This document shows, in pieces, positions 1 to 50,991 of a stretch of DNA of 64,000 bases (its first letter is position 1; every line of letters begins with the position of its first letter). The notes beneath the pieces are model-generated. The model was not told where the DNA came from and did not search any database. It was given only the letters and a program-made list of their open reading frames with translations. The position numbers and the translations under genes are program-made. This DNA comes from Saccharopolyspora sp. NFXS83 (GTDB taxonomy: Bacteria > Actinomycetota > Actinomycetes > Mycobacteriales > Pseudonocardiaceae). The DNA lies in contig NZ_JAPFGB010000017.1 in NCBI RefSeq assembly GCF_026241095.1, forward strand, positions 1 through 64,000. The letters run 5' to 3'.

Positions 1-175
1 TCCGCCACGAGGGAAAAAGCCGTCCTCGCGAGAGACCGGCTGAGAACCCGCGGGTGGTCGGCTTTTCGACGTGGGCTATGCGCTTCGCGCATCCAGGCAC
101 GGCTTCGCCGCAAGGCAGGCGTGGCTTCGCCGCCCACTGCACGGCTTCGCTGGGAGGACTCGGCTTCGTCGGTGG
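1..175 (-). repeat. Interspersed palindromic element, copy 1 (cut by window start)
   Basis: Non-coding DNA sharing blocks with four other intergenic sites in this window: a GGGAAAAAGC run beside half of a small hairpin, GAGAACCCGC, CGACGTGGGCTATGCGC and CAGGCACGGC, followed by short CGGCTTCGCCG-type repeats. It lies in the same orientation as the copy near 10.3 kb and opposite to those near 15.6, 48.2 and 50.9 kb. The window edge removes its outer palindrome arm. Short reading frames through it are by-products of the repeat. Confidence 0.7.
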
Positions 176-7802: not shown

Positions 7803-7989
7803 CGATCTTCAGCGAAGCTGATCGGTCCCGGTGAAGTGTTGGCGTCGCCTCAAAGCTGAGAGTGACCGTTCAACGTTTCGGGGGACGGCCGGGGAGGGGC
7901 GGTAGCCCGAACGGCGTTATTCTCGATGCCCGGGTCGTGACCACCTCAGGACCCGGGTGCAACGTCCCCTCCAGGCCCGGGAGCGAGCG

Positions 7990-10299
7990 GTGAGCCAAGA
8001 CGTCGAGTCTCCTGTCTCAGCAACCGAGCAGGTGCGTCCCGCCTCGGCTACCAGGCGGGTACGTGCCCGCTTGGCCAGACGGATCACGGCGCAGCGCGCC
8101 GCGGAGGTCAAGCAAGTGCTGGAGCCGCTGGCAGCGGTGCACCGCGAACTGCATCCGCACGCCGATCTGGCACTGCTGCAGCACGCCTACGACGTCGCCG
8201 AGGACAAGCACAGCCATCAGCGCCGCAAATCGGGTGACCCCTACATCACCCATCCGTTGGCGGTCGCCACCATCCTGGGTGAGCTGGGGATGGACACCAC
8301 GACGCTGGTGGCGGCGCTGCTGCACGACACGGTCGAGGACACCGACTACTCGGTGGAGCGGCTCAGCGCGGACTTCGGCGACGAGATCTCGCACCTGGTC
8401 GACGGCGTCACCAAGCTCGACAAGGTGAAGCTGGGCGCGGCGGCCGAGGCCGAGACCATCCGCAAGATGATCATCGCGATGGCGCGCGACCCGCGCGTCC
8501 TGGTGATCAAGCTGGCCGACCGGCTGCACAACATGCGCACGATGCGCTTCCTGCCGCCGGAGAAGCAGGCCCGCAAGGCCCGCGAAACCCTCGAAGTGCT
8601 GGCCCCGCTGGCGCACCGGCTGGGCATGGCCACCATCAAGTGGGAGCTGGAGGACCTGGCGTTCGCCATCCTGCAGCCCAAGAAGTACGACGAGATCGTG
8701 CGCCTGGTCGCCAACCGAGCCCCTTCCAGGGACACCTACCTGCGCACCGTCACCGACGAGCTCGCCGCCCAGCTCGGCACCGCGCGGCTCGCCGCGAAGG
8801 TCGAAGGACGACCCAAGCACTACTACTCGATCCACCAGAAGATGATCGTCCGAGGCCGCGACTTCGACGACATCCACGACCTGGTGGGCGTGCGGATCCT
8901 CGTCGACGAGGTGCGCGACTGCTACGCCGCGATGGGCGTGGTGCACGCGCTGTGGCAGCCGATGCCGGGCCGGTTCAAGGACTACATCGCCCAGCCCCGC
9001 TTCGGCGTGTACCAGTCGCTGCACACCACGGTGATCGGCCCCGAGGGCAAGCCCCTGGAAGTGCAGATCCGCACCAGCGAGATGCACCGCACCGCCGAGT
9101 ACGGCATCGCCGCGCACTGGCGCTACAAGGAGACCAAGGGCCGCAACGGCAGCGGCGGCCAATCGGCCGTCGAGGTCGACGACATGGCCTGGATGCGCCA
9201 GCTGCTGGACTGGCAGCGGGAAGCCGCCGACCCGGGCGAATTCCTGGAGTCGCTGCGCTACGACCTGGCCACCCGCGAGATCTTCGTGTTCACCCCTAAG
9301 GGCGACGTGATCACGCTGCCGTCCGGGTCGACGCCGGTGGACTTCGCCTACGCGGTGCACACCGAGGTCGGGCACCGCTGCATCGGCTCCCGCGTCAACG
9401 GCCGCCTGGTGGCCCTGGAGCGGAAGCTGGAGAACGGCGAGGTCGTCGAGATCTTCACCTCCAAGGCGGAGGGCTCCGGGCCGAGCCGGGACTGGCTGTC
9501 GTTCGTCGCCTCCCCGCGGGCCAAGGCGAAGATCAAGCAGTGGTTCGCGAAGGAACGCCGCGAAGAGGCCATCGACAGCGGCAAGGAAGCCATCACCAAG
9601 GAGATCCGCAGGCTCGGCCTCCCGGTGCAGCGCCTGGTCACCGCGGACTCCATCGCGGCCGTCGCCCGCGAACTGCACTACGTCGACGTCACCGCGCTGT
9701 ACGCGGCGGTGGGGGAGCGGCAGGTCTCCGCGCACCACCTGGTGCAGCGGCTCGTCGCGCTCATCGGCGGCGTGGAGCAGGCCGAGGACGAGATCGCGGA
9801 GCGCTCCACCCCGTCCACCGTGCAGCAGCGGCGCCGCAGCACCGGTGACTCCGGCGTGGTCGTCAAGGACGCCGGCGACGTGTGGTCGAAGCTCGCCCGC
9901 TGCTGCACCCCGGTGCCGGGCGACGAGATCCTCGGGTTCGTCACCCGCGGCGGCGGCGTCAGCGTGCACCGCACCGACTGCACCAACGCCGACGACCTGC
10001 GCAAATCTCCGGAGCGGCTGGTCGAGGTGTACTGGGCGCCGTCGGCGTCCTCGGTGTTCCTGGTCGCCATCCAGGTGGAGGCGCTGGACCGGCACCGGCT
10101 GCTCTCGGACGTCACGAAGGTGCTCGCGGACGAGCGGGTGAACATCCTGTCGGCCTCGGTGACCACGTCGAAGGACCGGGTGGCGGTGAGCCGGTTCTCC
10201 TTCGAGATGGGCGATCCGAAGCACCTCGGCCACGTGCTCAAGGCGGTGCGCAACATCGAAGGCGTCTACGACGTGTACCGGGTGACTTCTGCTGCTTGA
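7990..10299 (+). CDS. rel: Bifunctional (p)ppGpp synthetase/hydrolase Rel
   Basis: Central stringent-response enzyme. About 769 residues with the full domain order: HD hydrolase (HDTVEDT, residues 112-118), synthetase ([13 protein letters not shown] and [10 protein letters not shown]), TGS domain ([20 protein letters not shown]), helical and zinc-finger region ([12 protein letters not shown]), and a C-terminal ACT domain. The RFKD motif ([11 protein letters not shown]) and intact HD box indicate both activities. I prefer GTG 7990 with GGGAGCGAGC upstream; GTG 7957 is also in frame. TATTCT at 7918-7923 is a possible -10 box. Confidence 0.95.
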
Positions 10300-10317
10300 G
10301 CGGTCCCGGTCGTTTCG

Positions 10318-10530
10318 CTCTGGGGTCGGGTGGCGGAATCTCAGCGTTCCTCTCGCCGCGGGATCTTTCTCCCTCGTGGCTCCGCCACGGGAAAAAGCTG
10401 TCCGCGCGAGCGACCGGCTGGGAACCCGCGCGTGGTCGGGTTATCGACGTGGGCTGTGCGCTGACGCGCATCCAGGCACGGCTTCGCCGCGAGGCACGGC
10501 CTGCGGCCACGAGGATTCGGCTTCGCCCGC
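10318..10530 (-). repeat. Interspersed palindromic element, copy 2
   Basis: Between rel and the P450 gene. Reading left to right it has GCGGAATCTCAGCG, a hairpin (GTGGC-TCC-GCCAC, 10376-10388) flanked by CTTTCTCCC and GGGAAAAAGC, then GGGAACCCGCG, CGACGTGGGCTGTGCGC, GCGCATCCAGGCACGGC and degenerate CGGCTTCGCCG units. This is the reverse complement of the order in the copies at 48.2 and 50.9 kb. No gene is visible in it. Confidence 0.75.
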
Positions 10531-15535: not shown

Positions 15536-15619
15536 GGGAGCCTCGCGGAGTGCTCTTCGGGCTGCGCCTCGTCGGCCGCGCGGTCGCTGAGCAGTGATCA
15601 CCTGAGCAGGATGACCACC

Positions 15620-15705
15620 GGCGGCTTCCTCGCCGCGGGTCCTGCCGCACGCTCATGCGCGGCGGAATCGCCGTCCTCGCGAGGAAGCCGCCGAGGTTCC
15701 GCGAC
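15620..15705 (+). repeat. Interspersed palindromic element, copy 3 (short)
   Basis: Inverted arms GGCGGCTTCCTCG (15620-15632) and CGAGGAAGCCGCC (15680-15692) followed by GAGGTTCCGC. The right arm and tail match the copy at 50.9 kb almost base for base, but the centre differs and the CGACGTGGGC block is missing. It lies between two convergent genes. Confidence 0.6.
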
Positions 15706-15732
15706 AGGCCCGCTGCGCGAGCCGCCTCCCGC

Positions 15733-17349
15733 TCACGCCGTCGGCGGCCGGGGCGGTCGGGGGCGCCGGGCGGCGACGCGGGTCGTGGCGCTCTCGGCCG
15801 CCGCAGAGCCGACCCGCTCGGCGGCGGTGCTGCGGGCGGTGCCGCCGGTTTCGCGGGCCGCGACGAGCGCGGCGATCAGCGTGGTGATCGGCACCGCGGC
15901 CACCAGGCCGATGCTGCCGACCAAGGTGCGCACCACCTCCTGCGCGACCGCCTGGGTGCTGATGATCTCGCCGAAGCTGCGCCCGGACAGCGAGTAGGCC
16001 AGCAGCAGCGGCAGCGAAGCGCCCGCGTACGCGAGCACCAGCGTGTTCACCGCGGACGCCACGTGGTCCCGGCCGATCCGCAGCCCGGCGCTGTAGAGCT
16101 TGCGCCAGCCGAGCGTCGGGTTGGCCCGCCGCAACTCCCACACCGCGCTGGTCTGGGTGACGGTCACGTCGTCGAGCACGCCGAGCGCGCCGATCACGAT
16201 CCCGGCCAGCAGCAGCCCGCGCGCGTCGATCGGGGTGCCCAGTGCGGCGATGAGGCTGGAGGTGTCGTCGTCGAGCCCGGTGAGCCGGGTCGTGGCGGAG
16301 AACAGCGCGCTGAGCCCGCCGATCAGCGCCAGGCTCAGCAACGTGCCGAGCACGGCCGTGGACGTGCGCGCCGAGAACCCGTGCGTCAGGTACAGCACCA
16401 CGAACATGATCAGCCCGGAACCGACCACCGAGACGAGCAGCGGATTTTCCCCAGCGAGGATCGCGGGCAGCACGAAGCCGATCAGCACCACGAAGCTCAA
16501 CACCAGCGCTCCCAGCGCGGCGAGCCCCTGCCACCGCCCGAGCAGCAGCACGGCGACGGCGAACACCAGGCCGAGCACGATCAGCGGGTTGCCCCGCTGG
16601 AAGTCCACGACCTGGTAGGAGGACTCCTCCTCCGGGTTGGCGCCCGCGTAGGAGAGCACCACCTGGTCGCCGACGGCGAAGCGAGGAGTTCCGGGTTCGG
16701 TCGGCATCACCTGGGCGATGGTGCGTCCGGGGTTCGGGCCGTCGGCCATCCGGACCTGCAGGGTGACGCAGCCACTGGAGTCGCCGCAGCCGCCCGCTTC
16801 GGCGGCGATGACCTCGCCGTTCACCGGGTACTGGCCGAGGCCGAGGTCCGCGCCGGTGCGCTGCTGGTGGCCGAAGGGGTAGAGCAGGGCGGTGCCGATG
16901 ATCGCGGCCAGCGCGAACGGCACCAGGGCGATCGCCAGCAGGCGCTTGACGGTGCGGGAAGCAGGGGGACCGTCGTGTCCGTGTCCGTGTCCGTGTCCGT
17001 GTCCGTGCCCGATGGCCGTGGAGCCGGAGCCGGGCTTGGCGCTCGGTTCGGGAGCGGCGGCCTCCTCGTCGGCGGCCCGGTGCGCGGCCCCGCCGCGGCG
17101 CTCGCCGGCTTCGGGGGCGGCAGGGCGTCGTCGCGAGCGCGGCCCGTTCGCAGCGGGTCCGCCCGGCTGCGAGCCGGATTGAGGGCCGGACTGGGGCCCG
17201 GTGCGCGGACCGCCGCCCGGTCCGGACGCGGAACCCGCCGGGGGTCCGCCGGAGTCCGGTCCGGGCCGTCGTGGCGGTTGCGGTCGGCCAGGCCGGGGTC
17301 GGCGATGCTCTCCGCCGCCGGGAGGCCCTGCTGGAGGCACGTCGGTCAC
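15733..17349 (-). CDS. YibE/F family membrane protein
   Basis: About 538 residues. A long Pro/Gly/Arg-rich cytoplasmic N-terminus with a (Gly-His)6 run is followed by one membrane helix, a soluble segment with a paired-cysteine patch (GGCGDSSGCVTLQV), and about seven more helices with the YibE/F signature region LAGIVIGALGVLDDVTVTQTS. Family members are multi-pass proteins of unclear function, possibly transport. The start is uncertain: GTG 17349 (VTDVPPAGPP) is chosen because homologues begin there; GTG 17397 and ATG 17418 are alternatives and none has a clear ribosome site. Confidence 0.85.
   Translation of the reverse strand: MTDVPPAGPPGGGEHRRPRPGRPQPPRRPGPDSGGPPAGSASGPGGGPRTGPQSGPQSGSQPGGPAANGPRSRRRPAAPEAGERRGGAAHRAADEEAAAPEPSAKPGSGSTAIGHGHGHGHGHGHDGPPASRTVKRLLAIALVPFALAAIIGTALLYPFGHQQRTGADLGLGQYPVNGEVIAAEAGGCGDSSGCVTLQVRMADGPNPGRTIAQVMPTEPGTPRFAVGDQVVLSYAGANPEEESSYQVVDFQRGNPLIVLGLVFAVAVLLLGRWQGLAALGALVLSFVVLIGFVLPAILAGENPLLVSVVGSGLIMFVVLYLTHGFSARTSTAVLGTLLSLALIGGLSALFSATTRLTGLDDDTSSLIAALGTPIDARGLLLAGIVIGALGVLDDVTVTQTSAVWELRRANPTLGWRKLYSAGLRIGRDHVASAVNTLVLAYAGASLPLLLAYSLSGRSFGEIISTQAVAQEVVRTLVGSIGLVAAVPITTLIAALVAARETGGTARSTAAERVGSAAAESATTRVAARRPRPPRPPTA
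16975..17010 (-). repeat. Hexanucleotide repeat encoding a Gly-His run
   Basis: Five perfect GTGTCC units (16975-17004) plus one GTGCCC, inside the YibE/F gene. On the coding strand they give alternating glycine and histidine. The 6-base unit keeps the frame, so slippage would change only the length of the run. Confidence 0.85.
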
Positions 17350-17493
17350 CGGCCAATCGTATGGGGTGCTCGCGTTCGCGCACCGCCGCTCCGTCACCGC
17401 GCGATCACCGCAGCGCACCGCACCGGCACGGCGCCCCCATCGGGCGAGGTGAACACCCTGGACAGTTCATCGAAAATGTGTTCGACTCGAAGT

Positions 17494-20355: not shown

Positions 20356-22164
20356 GTGATGCGCACGCACGAGGCCGGATCGCTTCGCGCCGGTCATGCC
20401 GGGCAGTCCGTCACCTTGGCAGGCTGGGTGGCGCGCCGTCGCGATCACGGTGGAGTGATCTTCATTGATCTCCGTGACGCTTCCGGTGTCGCCCAGGTGG
20501 TCTTCCGCGAAGGCGAGATGGCCGAGCGCGCCCACCGGCTGCGGGCGGAGTTCTGCGTCCGCATCACCGGTGACGTCGTGCGCCGCCCCGAGGGCAACGA
20601 GAACGCCGAGATCGGGACCGGCGAGATCGAGGTCTACGCCACCGAGCTCGAAGTCCTCTCCGAGGCCGCGCCGCTGCCGTTCCCGCTGGACGAGCACCTC
20701 GAGGTCGGCGAGGAGATCCGGCTCAAGCACCGCTACCTGGACCTGCGCCGCGCCGGACCGGCCAAGATCATGCGGCTGCGCAGCGACGTCAACCGGGTCG
20801 CCCGCGAGGTGCTGCACGAGCGGGACTTCGTCGAGATCGAGACGCCGACGATGACCCGCTCCACTCCGGAAGGCGCCCGCGACTTCCTGGTCCCGGCGCG
20901 GTTGCAGCCGGGCAGCTGGTACGCGCTGCCGCAGTCGCCGCAGCTGTTCAAGCAGCTGCTCATGGTCGGCGGCATGGAGCGCTACTTCCAGATCGCGCGC
21001 TGCTACCGGGACGAGGACTTCCGGGCCGACCGGCAGCCGGAGTTCACCCAGCTCGACGTCGAGATGAGCTTCGTCGAGCAGGACGACGTGATCGAGCTCG
21101 GCGAGCAGATCATCGCCGGGCTGTGGAAGCTGATCGGGCACGAGATCACCACCCCGATCCCGCGGATCACCTACGCCGACGCGATGGCCCGCTACGGCAG
21201 CGACAAGCCCGACCTGCGCTTCGGGCTGGAGCTCACCGAGCTCACCGAGTACTTCGCCGACACCCCGTTCCGGGTGTTCCGCGCGCCCTACGTCGGCGCG
21301 GTCGTCATGCCCGGCGGCGCGAGCCAGCCGCGGCGCCAGCTCGACGCCTGGCAGGACTGGGCGAAGCAGCGCGGCGCCAAGGGCTTGGCCTACGTGCTGG
21401 TGGGCGAGGACGGCACGCTGTCCGGCCCGGTGGCGAAGAACCTCTCCGAGCCCGAGCGCGAAGGCCTCGCCAAGGCCGTCGGCGCGGCACCGGGCGACTG
21501 CGTGTTCTTCGCCGCGGGCGAGCGCGCCCCCTCGCGAGCGCTGCTGGGTGCGGCCCGGCTGGAGATCGGCGAGCGCTGCGGCCTCATCGACCACGACGCC
21601 TGGTCGTTCGTGTGGGTGGTGGACGCGCCGATGTTCGAGTCCATCGCCGACACCGACGACGTCGCCGTCGGCACCGGTCGCTGGACCGCGGTGCACCACC
21701 CGTTCACCGCGCCTAACGCGGACTGGGCCGAGGACTTCGACCAGGACCCGGAGAACGCGCTGGCCTGGGCCTACGACATCGTCTGCAACGGCAACGAGAT
21801 CGGCGGCGGCTCCATCCGCGTGCACCGCGGCGACGTGCAGGAGCGGGTGTTCTCGGTGCTGGGCATCTCCGAGGAGCAGGCGCGGGAGAAGTTCGGCTTC
21901 CTGCTCGACGCGTTCAAATTCGGCGCGCCCCCGCACGGCGGCATCGCCTTCGGCTGGGACCGGATCTGCATGCTGCTGGCCGGGGCGGACTCGCTGCGCG
22001 AGGTCATCGCCTTCCCGAAGAGCGGCGGCGGTTTCGACCCGCTGACCAGTGCGCCCGCGCCGATCACGGACGCGCAGCGCAAGGAAGCCGGCGTGGACGC
22101 GAAGCCCGAGGTGAAGCCGAAGGACTCGGTGCCCACCGAGAAGCTGACCGAAGAGCAGAGCTGA
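20356..22164 (+). CDS. aspS: Aspartyl-tRNA synthetase (AspRS)
   Basis: Class II synthetase charging tRNA-Asp. About 602 residues: N-terminal OB anticodon domain ([23 protein letters not shown]), motif 1 region, motif 2 ([21 protein letters not shown]), a bacterial GAD insertion, and motif 3 ([14 protein letters not shown]). GTG 20356 ([10 protein letters not shown]) is chosen from homologues and GAGGAG at 20338-20343; ATG 20359 is the next codon. Most actinobacteria lack a full amidotransferase-free Asn route, so this enzyme may also mischarge tRNA-Asn, but sequence alone does not decide that. Confidence 0.95.
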
Positions 22165-22287
22165 GAAGTCCGTTCAGAATGGTCTGCGTCGTGGGTCGCT
22201 CAGCCGGACCGCAGCGGGTCCGCCGCTGACGGGACGGCGAACGAGGACCAGTCCGGAAGGACTTCCGAGGCCGAGGCGGGGTTCGTC

Positions 22288-28836: not shown

Positions 28837-30189
28837 GTGAGTGACGGCCTGTTCGACGAGGGGTTGTTCGGCGCCGAGACCGAAGATCGCGCCGGGGAGC
28901 GGCTGGCCGAGAACGCGCCGTTGGCGGTTCGGATGCGCCCGCGTTCGCTGGACGAGGTGCTCGGCCAGGACCACCTGCTGGGCGCCGGTGCGCCGCTGCG
29001 CAGGTTGGTGGAGGGCGCGGCCCCGGCGTCGATCCTGCTCTACGGCCCGCCCGGCACCGGCAAGACGACGCTGGCGAACCTGGTGTCCCGCGCGACGGGA
29101 CGGCGGTTCGTGGCGCTGTCCGCGCTGTCGTCCGGGGTCAAGGAGGTTCGCGCCGTCATCGAGGAGGCCCGCCGCCGCCTCGGCCGCTCCGGTGAGGCGA
29201 CGGTGCTGTTCATCGACGAGGTGCACCGGTTCTCCAAGACCCAGCAGGACGCGCTGCTCGGCGCCGTCGAGGACCGCACGGTGCTGCTGGTGGCCGCGAC
29301 GACCGAGAACCCGTACTTCTCCGTGGTGGCTCCGCTGCTGTCGCGGTCGCTGGTGCTGCAGCTGCGCAGCCTGGAGGAGGACGACGTCCGGGAACTCGTG
29401 CGGCGCGCGGTCGCCGAGGAACGCGGCTTGGCCGGGGCGCTCGAACTCGACGAGGACGCGCTGGAGCACCTGGTGGCGCTGGCGGGTGGCGACGCGCGCC
29501 GGGCGCTGACCGCGTTGGAGGCCGCCGCCGAGTCCGCGGGCTCCACCGGTTCCGGCCGGATCGACCTGGGCACCGTGGAGGCGACGGTGAACCGGGCCGC
29601 CGTGCTCTACGACAGAGGCGGCGACCAGCACTACGACGTGGTCAGCGCGTTCATCAAATCGATCCGCGGCTCCGACGTGGACGCCGCGCTGCACTACCTG
29701 GCCCGCATGGTGGAGGCGGGGGAGGACCCGCGGTTCATCGCGCGCCGCCTGGTGGTGCACGCCAGCGAGGACGTCGGCATGGCCGACCCGACCGCGTTGC
29801 AGGCCGCCGTCGCCGCCTCGCAGGCCGTGCAGTTCATCGGCATGCCGGAGGGGCGCCTCGCGCTCGCGCAGGCCACGATCCACCTGGCCACGGCGCCCAA
29901 GTCGAACGCGGTGATCATGGCGATCGACGCGGCGATGGGCGACGTGCGGGCGGGCAAGTCCGGCACGGTGCCCCCGCACCTGCGCGACGGGCACTACGCC
30001 GGGGCGAAGAAGCTCGGCAACGCGAAGGGCTACCAGTACCCGCACGACCGCTCGGAGGGCGTGCTGGAACAGCAGTACCCGCCGGACGAGCTGGTCGGCA
30101 CCGACTACTACGAGCCGACCGGGCGCGGCGCGGAACGAGTGCTGGGCGAGCGCGTGCCCAAGCTGCGCGGCATCGTCCGCGGCGGGTGA
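28837..30189 (+). CDS. rarA: Replication-associated recombination protein A (RarA/MgsA)
   Basis: AAA+ ATPase acting at stalled replication forks, related to RuvB and clamp-loader subunits. About 450 residues: [21 protein letters not shown] near the N-terminus, Walker [12 protein letters not shown], Walker [20 protein letters not shown], sensor-1 [10 protein letters not shown], and the MgsA-type tetramerisation C-terminus ([32 protein letters not shown]). GTG 28837 is chosen from homologues and the -10 box just upstream. Equivalent in position to Rv2559c. Confidence 0.94.
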
Positions 30190-44422: not shown

Positions 44423-46050
<1,628 letters not shown>

Positions 46051-46234
46051 CGATCGGGTGTCCGGGTGGCGGAGGTTCGGCGGCCTGGCTCGTCGAGGCA
46101 TCGGCCTCCGCCATGCGACCTCGCCCGCACGCCAAGACCAGTGCGGACTTCGCCGGGCGGGCCCGTTGCCGAGATCACTGCTCATCGGCTTCGCACCGGC
46201 GGAAAAAGGCCCCGAGCGTGCCGCGATGACCGCC

Positions 46235-47800: not shown

Positions 47801-47876
47801 CCACCCCGGGACAGCGGTCGAAGAAGTCACACTCACCTCACGGCCGAGCCCCGTGCTTCACGTCGAAGCCGAAGGG

Positions 47877-48255
47877 CGAGCGAAGCCACACCTGCCTCAC
47901 GGCCGAAGGCCGTGCCTTTGCGGCGAAGCCGTGCTTTGGGCGAGCGAAGCGATGCTTGCTTTGCGGCCGAAGGCCGTGCCTTTGCGGCGAAGCCGTGCTT
48001 TGGGCGAGCGAAGCGATGCCTGCCTTGCGGCCGAAGGCCGTGCCTTGCGGCGAAGCCGTGCTTTGGGCAAGCGAAGCGATGCTTGCTTTGCTGCCGAAGG
48101 CCGTGCCTGTATGCGCGTCAGCGCATAGCCCACGTCGAGAAGCCGCTCACCGGCGGGTTCTCAGCGTCCTTCTCGCGAGGACGGCTTTTTCCCTCGTGGC
48201 GGAGCCACTTGGGAAAAAGATCCCGCAGCGAGAAGGACGCTGAGGTTCCGCTGAA
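47877..48255 (+). repeat. Interspersed palindromic element, copy 4 (largest)
   Basis: Begins with a 64-bp tandem array, then GTATGCGCGTCAGCGCATAG, CCCACGTCGAGAAGCCGCTC, and a nested palindrome: outer arms CTCAGCGTCCTTCTCG (48160-48175) and CGAGAAGGACGCTGAG (48229-48244), inner arms CTTTTTCCC (48185-48193) and GGGAAAAAG (48211-48219) with a GTGGC-GGA-GCCAC tip. It ends GAGGTTCCGC. It lies between two genes on the same strand and holds no supported gene. Confidence 0.8.
47913..48103 (+). repeat. 64-bp tandem repeat, three units
   Basis: Units at 47913-47976, 47977-48040 (64 bases each) and 48041-48103 (63 bases) differ at only a few positions; a degraded partial unit precedes them. Each contains GGCGAAGCCGTGCTTTGGGC and the palindrome CGGCCGAAGGCCG. 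Units are contiguous with no spacers. Confidence 0.9.
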
Positions 48256-48322
48256 TGACCACCCAAGCAGAACGAGCCCTGGCGCCTTCCCGCTACGAAA
48301 GCAACAGCGCGATCCTCGTCGT

Positions 48323-48328
48323 TAGGCT
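48323..48328 (+). promoter_or_regulatory. Candidate leaderless promoter of pepQ (-10 TAGGCT)
   Basis: TAGGCT ends seven bases before ATG 48336. No ribosome-binding site precedes that ATG, which fits a leaderless transcript and supports this start over the upstream in-frame ATG. Confidence 0.55.
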
Positions 48329-48335
48329 GGTGCGC

Positions 48336-49445
48336 ATGCCCGAGACCCACTCCCGCCGCCGCCATGCCCTGCGCGAACTGCTCCGCGAAGCGGACCTCGA
48401 CGCCATCTTGGTGACCGATCTGCTCAACATCCGCTACCTCACCGGGTTCACCGGTTCGCAGGCTGCGGTGGTGGTGCACGCCGCCGACGAGCCGGGAGCC
48501 GAACGGGCCACCGCGTTCAGCACCGACGGGCGCTACCTGACCCAGGCGGCCGAGCAGGTCCCGGACCTGGAGCGGATCATCGAGCGGCCCAGCGAGGTCG
48601 TGCTGGCCGAACACGTCGCCAAAGCGCCTGATCGGTACCGGCGAACGGGTTTCGAGAGCCAGCACGTCACGGTCGACGGCCGCGACGCGCTGGCCGAGGC
48701 CGCGCCGGGCATCGAGCTCGTCCGCGCCCCCGGCCTGGTCGAACGCCTCCGGCTGGTCAAGGACGCCGCCGAGGTGGACGCGATCCGGATGGCCTGCGCC
48801 GCCGCCGACCGGGCGCTGGCCGACCTCATCGAGCACGGTGGCCTGCGTCCCGGCCGCACCGAGCTGGAGGTGGCCCGCGAGCTGGAGGCGCGGATGCTGG
48901 AGCACGGTGCCGCCGGCCCCGCGTTCGACACGATCGTCGCCGCGGGCGCGCATTCCGCGATCCCGCACCACCGGCCGACGACGGCGGCCTTGGCCGCGGG
49001 GGACTTCGTGAAGATGGACTTCGGCGCCCTCGTCGACGGCTACCACTCGGACATGACCCGCACCGTGGTGCTGGGTGCCCCGGCCGAGTGGCAGCGCGAG
49101 ATCTACGAGCTGGTGCACGCCGCGCAGGCAGCCGGGCGAGGGGCGGTCCGGGTGGGCACCGACGTGCGCGATGTGGACGGCGCGGCCCGCGAGGTGATCG
49201 ACGACGCGGGGTACGGCGAGCGGTACCCGCACAGCGTCGGACACGGCGTGGGGCTCGAGATCCATGAGGCACCGGCGTTGTCGCAGCGGGGGGACGGTAG
49301 GATCGAAGAGGGGATGGTGGTCACCGTCGAACCCGGCGTGTACTTGCCGGAGCGTGGCGGGGTCCGCATCGAGGACACCCTGGCCGTGCGCGAGAGCACG
49401 CCGGAACTCCTCACCTTGACGACCAAGGAGCTCGTCGCCGTCTGA
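48336..49445 (+). CDS. pepQ: Xaa-Pro aminopeptidase/dipeptidase (M24B)
   Basis: Removes residues next to proline; cytosolic metallopeptidase. About 369 residues: N-terminal creatinase-like domain ([14 protein letters not shown]) and C-terminal pita-bread domain with metal ligands in [18 protein letters not shown] (two Asp), [11 protein letters not shown] (His), VVTVEPGVY (Glu) and VRIEDTLAV (Glu). Start at ATG 48336 from homologues and the -10 box; ATG 48255 would add 27 residues encoded partly by repeat DNA. Position before efp matches Rv2535c. Confidence 0.93.
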
Positions 49446-49537
49446 GCGCGGTGCGCGTGCGGCCGACATGCAGCGGCGGCGCCGCATTCGCCTCAGCGAG
49501 TCAACCGCAGCCCGCATCACATGGAGAGACCGGACAC

Positions 49538-50104
49538 GTGGCATCCACGAACGACCTCAAGAACGGACTCGTGCTCAAGATCGACGGCCAGCTCTGGTCC
49601 GTCGTGAACTTCCAGCACGTCAAGCCGGGCAAGGGCGGCGCCTTCGTGCGCACCACGCTGAAGAACGTGCTCTCCGGCAAGACCGTGGACAAGACCTTCA
49701 ACGCCGGTGTGAAGGTCGAGACCGCGAACGTGGACCGCCGCGAGATGACGTACCTCTACGACGACGGCACCGACTTCGTGTTCATGGACCAGGACACCTA
49801 CGACCAGCTCAACGTCTCGCGCGGCGTGGTCGGGGACGCGGCGGACTACATGCTGGAGAACAGCAACGTGGTCATCGCCCGCCACGACGACGAGCCGCTG
49901 TACGTGGAGCTGCCCGCCTCGGTGGAGCTCCTCGTCGCGCACACCGACCCCGGTGTGCAGGGCGACCGCTCGACCGGCGGCACCAAGCCGGCGAGCTTGG
50001 AGACCGGCGCGGAGATCCAGGTGCCGCTGTTCCTGAACACCGGCGACAAGGTCAAGGTCGACCCGCGCGACGGTCGTTACCTGGGTCGCGTCAACACCAA
50101 GTGA
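49538..50104 (+). CDS. efp: Elongation factor P
   Basis: Binds stalled ribosomes and promotes peptide bonds at polyproline. About 188 residues, three beta-barrel domains. The tip loop of domain I is VKPGKGGAF with Lys32 at the position modified in other bacteria. Domain III ends [20 protein letters not shown] 49538 has GGAGAGA upstream. It lies 92 bases after pepQ. Confidence 0.96.
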
Positions 50105-50120
50105 TTCGTTCCCGCCGCAC

Positions 50121-50155
50121 CCGCGGCCCCGCCGGTTCCTCCGGCAGGGCCGCGG
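50121..50155 (+). terminator. Hairpin between efp and nusB
   Basis: Outer arms CCGCGGCCC / GGGCCGCGG (50121-50129, 50147-50155) enclose GCCGG / CCGGC. It is followed by TTCGTG. It could end part of the efp transcript before nusB. Confidence 0.5.
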
Positions 50156-50195
50156 TTCGTGCCGGGCGGGGGGACAGCGGAAAGAGAGATGTGAG

Positions 50196-50675
50196 TTGGG
50201 CTCACGGAGCAAGGCCCGCAAGCGGGCGGTGGACGTGCTGTACGAGGCCGACCTGCGCGGTCTCGACGCGGTGACGTTGCTGTCCGAGCGGCTCGCCGCG
50301 CCCGAGGCCGCGCCGGTCGGGGACTACACGGTCACCCTCGTCGAGGGCGTCGCCGGCAACCGGCAGCGCATCGACGACGTGCTCGTCGAGCACGCCGAGG
50401 GCTGGACGCTGGCCCGGATGCCCGCGGTGGACCGGGCCGTGCTGCGGCTGGGGCTCTACGAGCTGCTGTGGAGCGAGGACGTGCCGCCCGCGGTCGCCAT
50501 CGACGAGGCCGTGGAGCTGGTGAAGGCGCTGTCCACGGACGACTCGCCGCGGTTCGTCAACGGGGTGCTCGGCCGCATCGCGGGCATCAGCGAACGGCTG
50601 CGCACGTCGATCCGCAACCTGGAGGCCGCCGAGGCGGCGGCGAAGGAACGCGCGGACTCCGAAGCCCAGAGCTGA
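50196..50675 (+). CDS. nusB: Transcription antitermination factor NusB
   Basis: RNA-binding partner of NusE/S10 in rRNA antitermination. 159 residues: RSKARKRAVDVLYEADLRG at the start, LVEGVAGNRQRID, RMPAVDRAVLRLGLYELLW, and VNGVLGRI near the end. The start is TTG 50196: conserved sequence begins immediately after it, AAAGAGAGA lies upstream, and there is no ATG or GTG in a suitable place. bldD converges from the right. Confidence 0.93.
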   Translation: MGSRSKARKRAVDVLYEADLRGLDAVTLLSERLAAPEAAPVGDYTVTLVEGVAGNRQRIDDVLVEHAEGWTLARMPAVDRAVLRLGLYELLWSEDVPPAVAIDEAVELVKALSTDDSPRFVNGVLGRIAGISERLRTSIRNLEAAEAAAKERADSEAQS

Positions 50676-50783
50676 CCCGCGTCCCATCGCGGGGTTCGCC
50701 CCCCGGCGTCCCCGCGATACCGCGCGGCCTGCCAGGTAATCGGTTTCTCGCAGCGCCGATCCCGCCACCAGGCTTTCGAATCT

Positions 50784-50950
50784 CGTCTCCCCAGCGGCGA
50801 AAGCCGCAAGGGGCGGGCGAAGCCACGCTTGCCTGGCGGCCGAAGGCCGTGCCCGTATGCGCGAAGCGCACAGCCCACGTCGAGAAGCCGCTCACCCACG
50901 GGTTCTCAGCGGCTTCCTCGCGAGGAAGCCGCTGAGGTTCCGCTACCCGG
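50784..50950 (+). repeat. Interspersed palindromic element, copy 5
   Basis: GCGGCCGAAGGCCGTGCC, GTATGCGCGAAGCGCACAG, CCCACGTCGAGAAGCCGCTC, GGGTTCTCAGCG, then a perfect 32-base palindrome (50905-50936, arms CTCAGCGGCTTCCTCG) and GAGGTTCCGC. It matches copy 4 closely but lacks both the inner hairpin and the 64-bp array. Intergenic, between convergent nusB and bldD. Confidence 0.8.
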
Positions 50951-50991
50951 ACACCCGAGCGAAAAGACCCGTGAAACCCCGAGAAACGACG

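Follow-up and report, generated by a model that had tools for sequence, protein, structure and literature searches.

Several described kinds of mobile or palindromic DNA come close to the subject of this study, a family of hairpin-shaped intergenic repeats in a 64,000-nt stretch of the genome of Saccharopolyspora sp. NFXS83 (positions 1 to 64,000 of contig NZ_JAPFGB010000017.1, hereafter the window); statements about the publications cited here refer to those parts of their texts that were available. Miniature inverted-repeat transposable elements (MITEs) of bacteria, such as Correia, ERIC, RUP and SPRITE (PMC10969869), are short, intergenic, high-copy repeats that form stable hairpins, with ERIC elements found at gene 3' ends and SPRITE elements resembling terminators. 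Repetitive extragenic palindromic (REP) sequences and bacterial interspersed mosaic elements (BIMEs), associated with REP-associated tyrosine transposases (RAYTs; PMC2817692), are likewise high-copy intergenic palindromes. Among insertion sequences (ISs) of the IS5 family, the IS1031 subgroup shows a TNA target preference and a 3-bp repeat (PMC12016507). Template switching has been described as making and maintaining hairpins (PMC8794818, PMC8604942). In Saccharopolyspora erythraea, long inverted repeats, transposon clusters and intergenic non-coding RNAs have been described (PMC3610266), and nothing on the present repeat is found in the available part of that paper.

The family described here shares the short length, intergenic location, high copy number and stable hairpins of the bacterial MITEs. 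Unlike those members of the group covered in the available text, it has heptamer arms that covary and are replaced from one sister species to the next, prefers the sense orientation behind stop codons, and includes an abundant derivative that is devoid of terminal inverted repeats (TIRs) and carries arrays of TTCG hairpins. The best account of the family is probably that of a MITE of an IS5-family, IS1031-like element that was loaded behind genes and then homogenised in place. This account builds on an established family, on ends held in common by a minority of copies, on the target of the IS, on a bias of position, and on arm covariation accompanied by footprints of recombination.

The initial annotation had proposed that five intergenic sites of the window belong together, and sequence comparison and profile searches bear this out, since all five match the profile as copies of one dispersed family. 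A profile search recovered 26-30 copies in two stretches of the host genome (G000) totaling 451 kb (26 at E<1e-3), which extrapolates to about 400 copies per 6.9-Mb genome. With a 151-bp query taken from the 48105-48255 copy, at least 58 matches at E<=0.01 were obtained across the host genome, in at least 40 separate full-length places; 40 of 302 first-look candidates were scored for this query, the rest being mostly the same places on the other strand. The family was matched in 6/6 genomes of the genus and in 16/120 sampled genomes of the taxonomic family, which represent 10 of 46 genera and include four from the genus itself. Outside the genus, most of the matches listed span the hairpin core only (query ~44-148) and a few its last third. 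Among the compared relatives (G001, G002, G003, G004, G005 and G017), the matches listed for G005, G001 and G002 are confined to the hairpin core. The stretches of G003, G004 and G005 were mostly picked for the known copies in them, and first copies were found with a type-1 query (see below for types), so that density and the share of type 1 were not taken from these chosen stretches; the unselected stretches were C34 and C9 of G000 and positions 4.30-4.70 Mb of G003. Searches for the element in plasmids and phages, and of viral contigs with one degenerate core pattern, gave no match in sets from which near relatives may have been left out. The family thus comprises several hundred small, hairpin-shaped elements, probably relics of mobile DNA, lying just behind genes in the host and its relatives.

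On the strand that follows the upstream gene, the core has the structure GCGGAACCTCAG-arm-CTCGCTGCGGGATC-inner stem-GCTGTCCTCGCGAG-arm-CTGAGAACCCGC and measures ~99 nt. An ordered set of blocks had been described for the five sites; the family was found to reach past these blocks, with an additional left end of ~28-38 nt. The family exists in two forms. In type 2, a spacer of ~45 nt follows the core on its 3' side and leads to a second hairpin, CAGCGGCTTCGCCGCTG; the copies that are best preserved are bounded by ~17-bp TIRs, GGAGTCCTTTCRGAATG. In type 1, the left end is distinct (GGCTCGTTYTGCT in 94/111 copies) and the right side combines GACGTGGGC with a small hairpin, TATGCGC..GCGCATA or a covarying form of it, and with a variable series of TTCG mini-hairpins; no common right end was found for this type by eye. 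Three of the blocks originally listed, the GTATGCGC hairpin, the CCCACGTCGA block and the CGGCCGAAGGCCG array, belong to the type-1 tail only and lie outside the core. By a strict rule, this tail is present in 34, 42 and 35 copies of G000, G003 and G004, respectively, and in 0/36 full cores from seven other genomes, and type 1 accounts for 21/51 copies at E<1e-3 in the unselected stretches of G000 and G003. The copies and relics of the window are as follows.

1..149, + strand: type-1 copy cut by the window start (E 1.2e-42), with the 3' half of the hairpin core at 1-51 and then the tail.
10304..10507, + strand: type-1 copy (E 3.1e-51), core at 10333-10429, arms decayed and mismatched.
15537..15723, - strand: type-2 copy (E 2.6e-13 with the type-2 profile), core at ~15620-15705 with a different inner stem.
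22165..22267, + strand: core-less relic with inverted repeats GAAGTCCGTTCAGAATGG..CCAGTCCGGAAGGACTTC (weak profile matches, E 0.004 and 0.013).
46050..46207, + strand: decayed type-2 copy, additional to the five sites of the initial annotation (46157-46207, E 5.5e-4; left part recognized by eye).
47872..48282, - strand: type-1 copy (48282-48051, E 1.8e-70), with tail pieces down to 47872.
50806..50977, - strand: type-1 copy with its inner stem deleted (50926-50806, E 1.9e-28; 50977-50920, E 2.4e-9).

Four of the five originally noted copies are therefore type 1 and one, at 15620, is type 2; with the type-1 profile the latter yields short weak pieces only, and its fold has a z of -2.96. The core at 48.1 kb (48153-48251) has perfect GCGTCCTTCTCG arms and is followed by the GTATGCGC hairpin and ~64-bp tail units of TTCG mini-hairpins; its fold reaches -68.2 kcal/mol, with z of -8.9 and -8.3 on the two strands. 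In the copy first noted at 50784, loss of the inner stem leaves a perfect 44-nt palindrome (50899-50942), and the same place in G003 and G004 has a full inner stem and a different arm type. The 10304..10507 match starts 5 nt beyond the end of the + strand open reading frame (ORF) 7957..10299, the 15537..15723 copy adjoins the end of the - strand ORF 15733..17418, and the 22165..22267 relic starts directly after the TGA stop of an ORF ending at 22164. This relic is the same in G003, diverged in G004, and not seen in G005, G001 and G002, while the place in G004 that aligns with 46050..46207 holds a recognizable copy.

A candidate partner of the family was found in G004, where an intact 908-bp IS (C1, ~4833590-4834510, locus L137) lies directly beside a family copy and has its ends in common with it. 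This IS encodes a 274-aa IS5-family transposase with the Pfam domains DUF4096 and DDE_Tnp_1 (NCBIfam NF033580, 231 bits for a cut-off of 110). It is present in four identical copies in G004, with TAA or TTA on both sides in 4/4. Nine full-length relatives with 84-85% identity occur in G017; at five of six loci examined these show the same ends and TAA/TTA duplications, and the sixth gave no result. For the 908-911 bp IS as a whole, 9/10 copies examined in the two genomes sit at TAA/TTA. A transposase of this kind is also present in G003, where it is broken. With the IS1031 subgroup, for which the available source gives the TNA preference and the 3-bp repeat, the partner IS shares an IS5-family transposase, a length of ~900 bp and a 3-bp TNA duplication; its placement in this subgroup, which goes by the duplication and not by a tree, is a probable one. 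Unlike members of that group, the repeats carry IS ends only and not the gene.

A search of the genus with the pattern GGAGTCCTTTCGGAATGA (two mismatches allowed) found 36 places, compared with 0 for the reversed pattern; among 30 of these loci inspected, the core was flagged by script in 19, and seven more were decayed or core-less by eye. Some elements with the same ends have no core at all (L107, L121, L129 and L132, with matching 3-mers in 2/4), and it is therefore the ends, not the hairpin, that define the mobile unit. In unselected type-2-like full cores, the TIR was found on the left in 19/87 and on the right in 15/87, versus 4 and 6 in the control, for which flanks were read backwards. 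These figures exclude 13 of 100 type-2-like cores that had been fetched by their terminal repeat, whose removal lowers the counts from 29 and 25 of 100; an earlier count gave 109 such cores because type 1 was recognized more loosely in the later one. The 21 TIR-bounded copies, 15 from an automatic scan and six added by hand, have TNA at 19/42 flanks (16/30 without the six hand-added rows), compared with 2.4% of intergenic triplets. Beyond the genus, the terminal-repeat pattern was found among genome contigs in three Streptomyces records only, in which the end sequence follows CTAA beside relatives of the transposase (74-77% identity); no family core was present in the 250 bases inspected in these records.

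Further sequences adjoin certain copies. One, like GTGGAAGCNNTCAGTNAAGAAGACCTTCCACCGC, adjoins the left end of L003, L020, L009 and L025 and is perhaps another repeat family or a shared terminator. Others, like GAGCCTGTCTTTGATC, replace the IS5-type terminal repeat in L042, L043, G000 C34 127298 and 218360, and G003b 122202, which suggests that more than one IS may have lent ends to the family.

High-copy interspersed intergenic palindromes are what REP-type elements moved by a hairpin-recognizing Y1 (RAYT) transposase would produce, and the initial annotation had named REP elements among its candidates. The ends of type 2 match those of an IS5-family IS, and a search for the Y1 transposase (PF01797) was negative in the host genome as well as in G003, G004 and G005, with one match in G001 and two in G002. 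We regard such an origin as highly improbable, and REP elements in the proper sense were set aside. Integron attC sites and CRISPR were dropped by anatomy alone.

The position of the copies relative to genes is strongly biased. In large stretches, 0/180 copies fall within a called gene, in agreement with the original observation that copies avoid genes. In 141/175 copies with both neighbors called, the left side faces a gene 3' end (baseline for intergenic sides, 47%), and in 130/175 it lies within 60 nt of that end, with most stop-to-core distances at ~25-45 nt; gene calls come from a simple codon-score caller, by which 4/130 of the close stop codons overlap or touch the core. Convergent gaps are over-represented (80/175 copies versus 226/1311) and divergent gaps are avoided (8/175 versus 300/1311), while in tandem gaps 61 copies are in sense and 26 in antisense (P 2e-4). 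The copies had been reported in both orientations, which is true of the chromosome; with the neighboring gene as reference, the copies strongly favor one orientation. The bias toward gene 3' ends could in part be due to a TNA target, TAA and TGA being TNA. The preference of orientation would need an extra cause, such as asymmetric ends or selection on transcripts.

Comparison of aligned sites revealed that occupancy changes between relatives. Places at 10.3, 48.1 and 50.8 kb carry a copy in the window and in G003 and none in G005 and G001, and profile searches covering the 80 kb that surround the aligned window found no copy in G005, G001 or G002. Conversely, window positions 30189 and 38451 have no copy and the aligned sites of G003 have one. 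In two cases the two types replace each other at the same site: at 10.3 kb, where the window and G003 hold type 1 and G004 holds type 2, and in a comparison of C34 with G003. Native terminators were rejected as an explanation, sites being empty in relatives. As a separate observation, the place in G004 that aligns with 47.8-48.3 kb of the window holds, instead of the type-1 copy, several copies of another intergenic palindrome, GTGAACGGNCCGTTC.., which belongs to a different repeat family.

It had been noted that arm sequences differ between copies while complementarity is kept, and this pattern was recovered at large scale. The 16-nt arms are perfectly complementary in 138/201 complete-core copies (those of 228 whose match covers profile positions 1-99) and have one mismatch in 35. 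The variable heptamer occurs in 33 different perfect forms, and its pairing is 88% Watson-Crick among 110 distinct arm pairs, compared with 57% when 3' arms are shuffled within a genome; pair tables draw on those 123 of 172 distinct cores that measure exactly 99 nt. Sets of arm types differ between genomes. Arms also differ in 13/14 comparisons at shared sites (12 sites; a single site followed through three genomes supplies three of the comparisons, decayed copies enter into several, and a one-base shift raises two of the difference counts, the arms differing nonetheless). These comparisons require a nearly full core on both sides, which excludes the 48.1 and 50.8 kb sites, where arms are also unlike those of G003. 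When both copies are perfect, arms differ in 6/7 comparisons, by up to seven positions, within surrounding regions of mostly ~86-97% aligned identity.

Covariation of this strength, together with the very stable fold of the 48.1-kb core and the sense orientation of copies directly behind stop codons, is what a cis-acting RNA of the 3' untranslated region (a terminator, RNase III site or stabilizer) would present if its pairing were kept by selection at the RNA level. The imperfect arms speak otherwise: on the sense strand, the 35 single-mismatch copies comprise 19 A-C, 8 G-U and 8 other mismatches (P 0.052), the reverse of what RNA selection predicts. Sites are moreover not conserved in G005, G001 and G002, and Rfam gave no match in the window at gathering score. 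We judge a functional RNA of this kind unlikely, and the structured RNA offered by the initial annotation found no support. A different set of features points to exchange of DNA. Seven of 28 copies with two or more mismatches have chimeric arms, made up of two arm types that are both found as perfect pairs in the genome concerned. Of 200 cores checked for inversion and self-copying, 186 have the usual build and the ends of 12 are unclear; one core has an interior inverted relative to its flanks, and in another (G003, 48.1-kb site) the left end is a copy of the right. Chimeric arms, inverted interior, self-copied arm and type swaps are traces left by template switching at inverted repeats and by exchange between copies. 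Consequently, the absence of a G-U excess, the turnover of arms at shared sites, and the chimeric, inverted and self-copied arms favor homogenisation at the DNA level over RNA selection. Recombination or template switching is probably at work and needs no selection for pairing, so that of the earlier suggestion of selected base pairing only the maintenance of pairing itself stands. Arm homogenisation and spacer inversion, two footprints seen here, are shared with the template-switch hairpins described in the available literature, from which the present case differs as a dispersed bacterial repeat family in which they are mixed with exchange between copies.

These observations can be assembled into a sequence of steps. 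The family would be a non-autonomous (MITE) derivative of the 908-911 bp IS5-family IS, probably mobilized in trans by the IS transposase, as its shared ends suggest. TNA targets include TAA and TGA, so that an insertion at one of these stop codons would create a second copy of the stop without altering the protein, and such duplication may explain the copies directly behind genes. After insertion, template switching or inverted-repeat recombination, whose footprints are seen, may overwrite one arm with the sequence of the other; gene conversion among copies at different sites may swap whole arm pairs and spread the TIR-less type-1 form. Once transcribed, the hairpin behind a gene is a putative 3'-end barrier or stabilizer.

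A number of results weigh against this account. No transposase like that of the partner IS was found in G000, G001 and G002 at E<=1e-15. Of the unselected type-2-like copies only about one in five shows TIRs, and in type 1 they are not above the control (left 3/111 versus 9, right 15/111 versus 27). Identical 3-mers occur at both ends in only 4/21 TIR-bounded copies (permuted mean 1.6, P 0.058), two of these four being hand-added. TAG is not significantly depleted among adjacent stops (6/123 versus 157/1992, P 0.29) and distances to the core spread over ~25-45 nt, and exact insertion at stop codons is not established for most copies. The preference of orientation is not predicted by a TNA target alone, and the same IS end follows TAA in 4/4 copies of G004 but in only 3/5 of G017. 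Since intergenic divergence blurs exact boundaries, no empty site was resolved to the base. The account is most exposed at type 1, which does not pass the test for terminal repeats and for which conversion is only a proposed route of multiplication. The MITE-like character initially suggested is consequently upheld for type 2, with TIRs and TNA flanks as in the IS5-family IS, and not for type 1.

Type 1 invites two other readings. The left motif common to 94/111 of its copies, and its presence in G003 at two aligned sites where G000 has none, would suit an independent mobile element, equipped with a transposase and ends of its own and not derived from type 2; given that the core is shared with type 2, that no common right end was found, and that in two cases sister genomes hold different types at one and the same site, we consider this improbable. 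A more serious possibility, to which we nevertheless give less than an even chance, is that type-1 repeats no longer jump and spread by ectopic gene conversion over resident copies, with template switching renewing the complementarity of their arms. Covariation would then arise without RNA selection, in self-correcting, self-converting palindromes parked behind stops.

Among the described systems, REP/BIME elements with RAYTs differ from the MITE of an IS5-family element preferred here in that the host genome has no Y1 transposase and the ends of the repeats are those of an IS5-type IS. In the available text of the MITE review (PMC10969869), the terms 'stop codon' and 'Streptomyces' occur 0 times. 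No title describing the family appeared among the literature matches listed, which is no proof of absence given that most subscription journals lie outside the search.

If true, the account given here would mean that several hundred closely similar palindromes per genome offer a system in which conversion and template switching can be distinguished from compensatory selection, and that covariation in intergenic hairpins does not by itself establish a functional RNA. A TNA target, which covers the TAA and TGA stops, would likewise provide a simple rule by which an IS family loads the space behind genes without breaking them, and the arm pairs that change together may show how palindromes stay intact.

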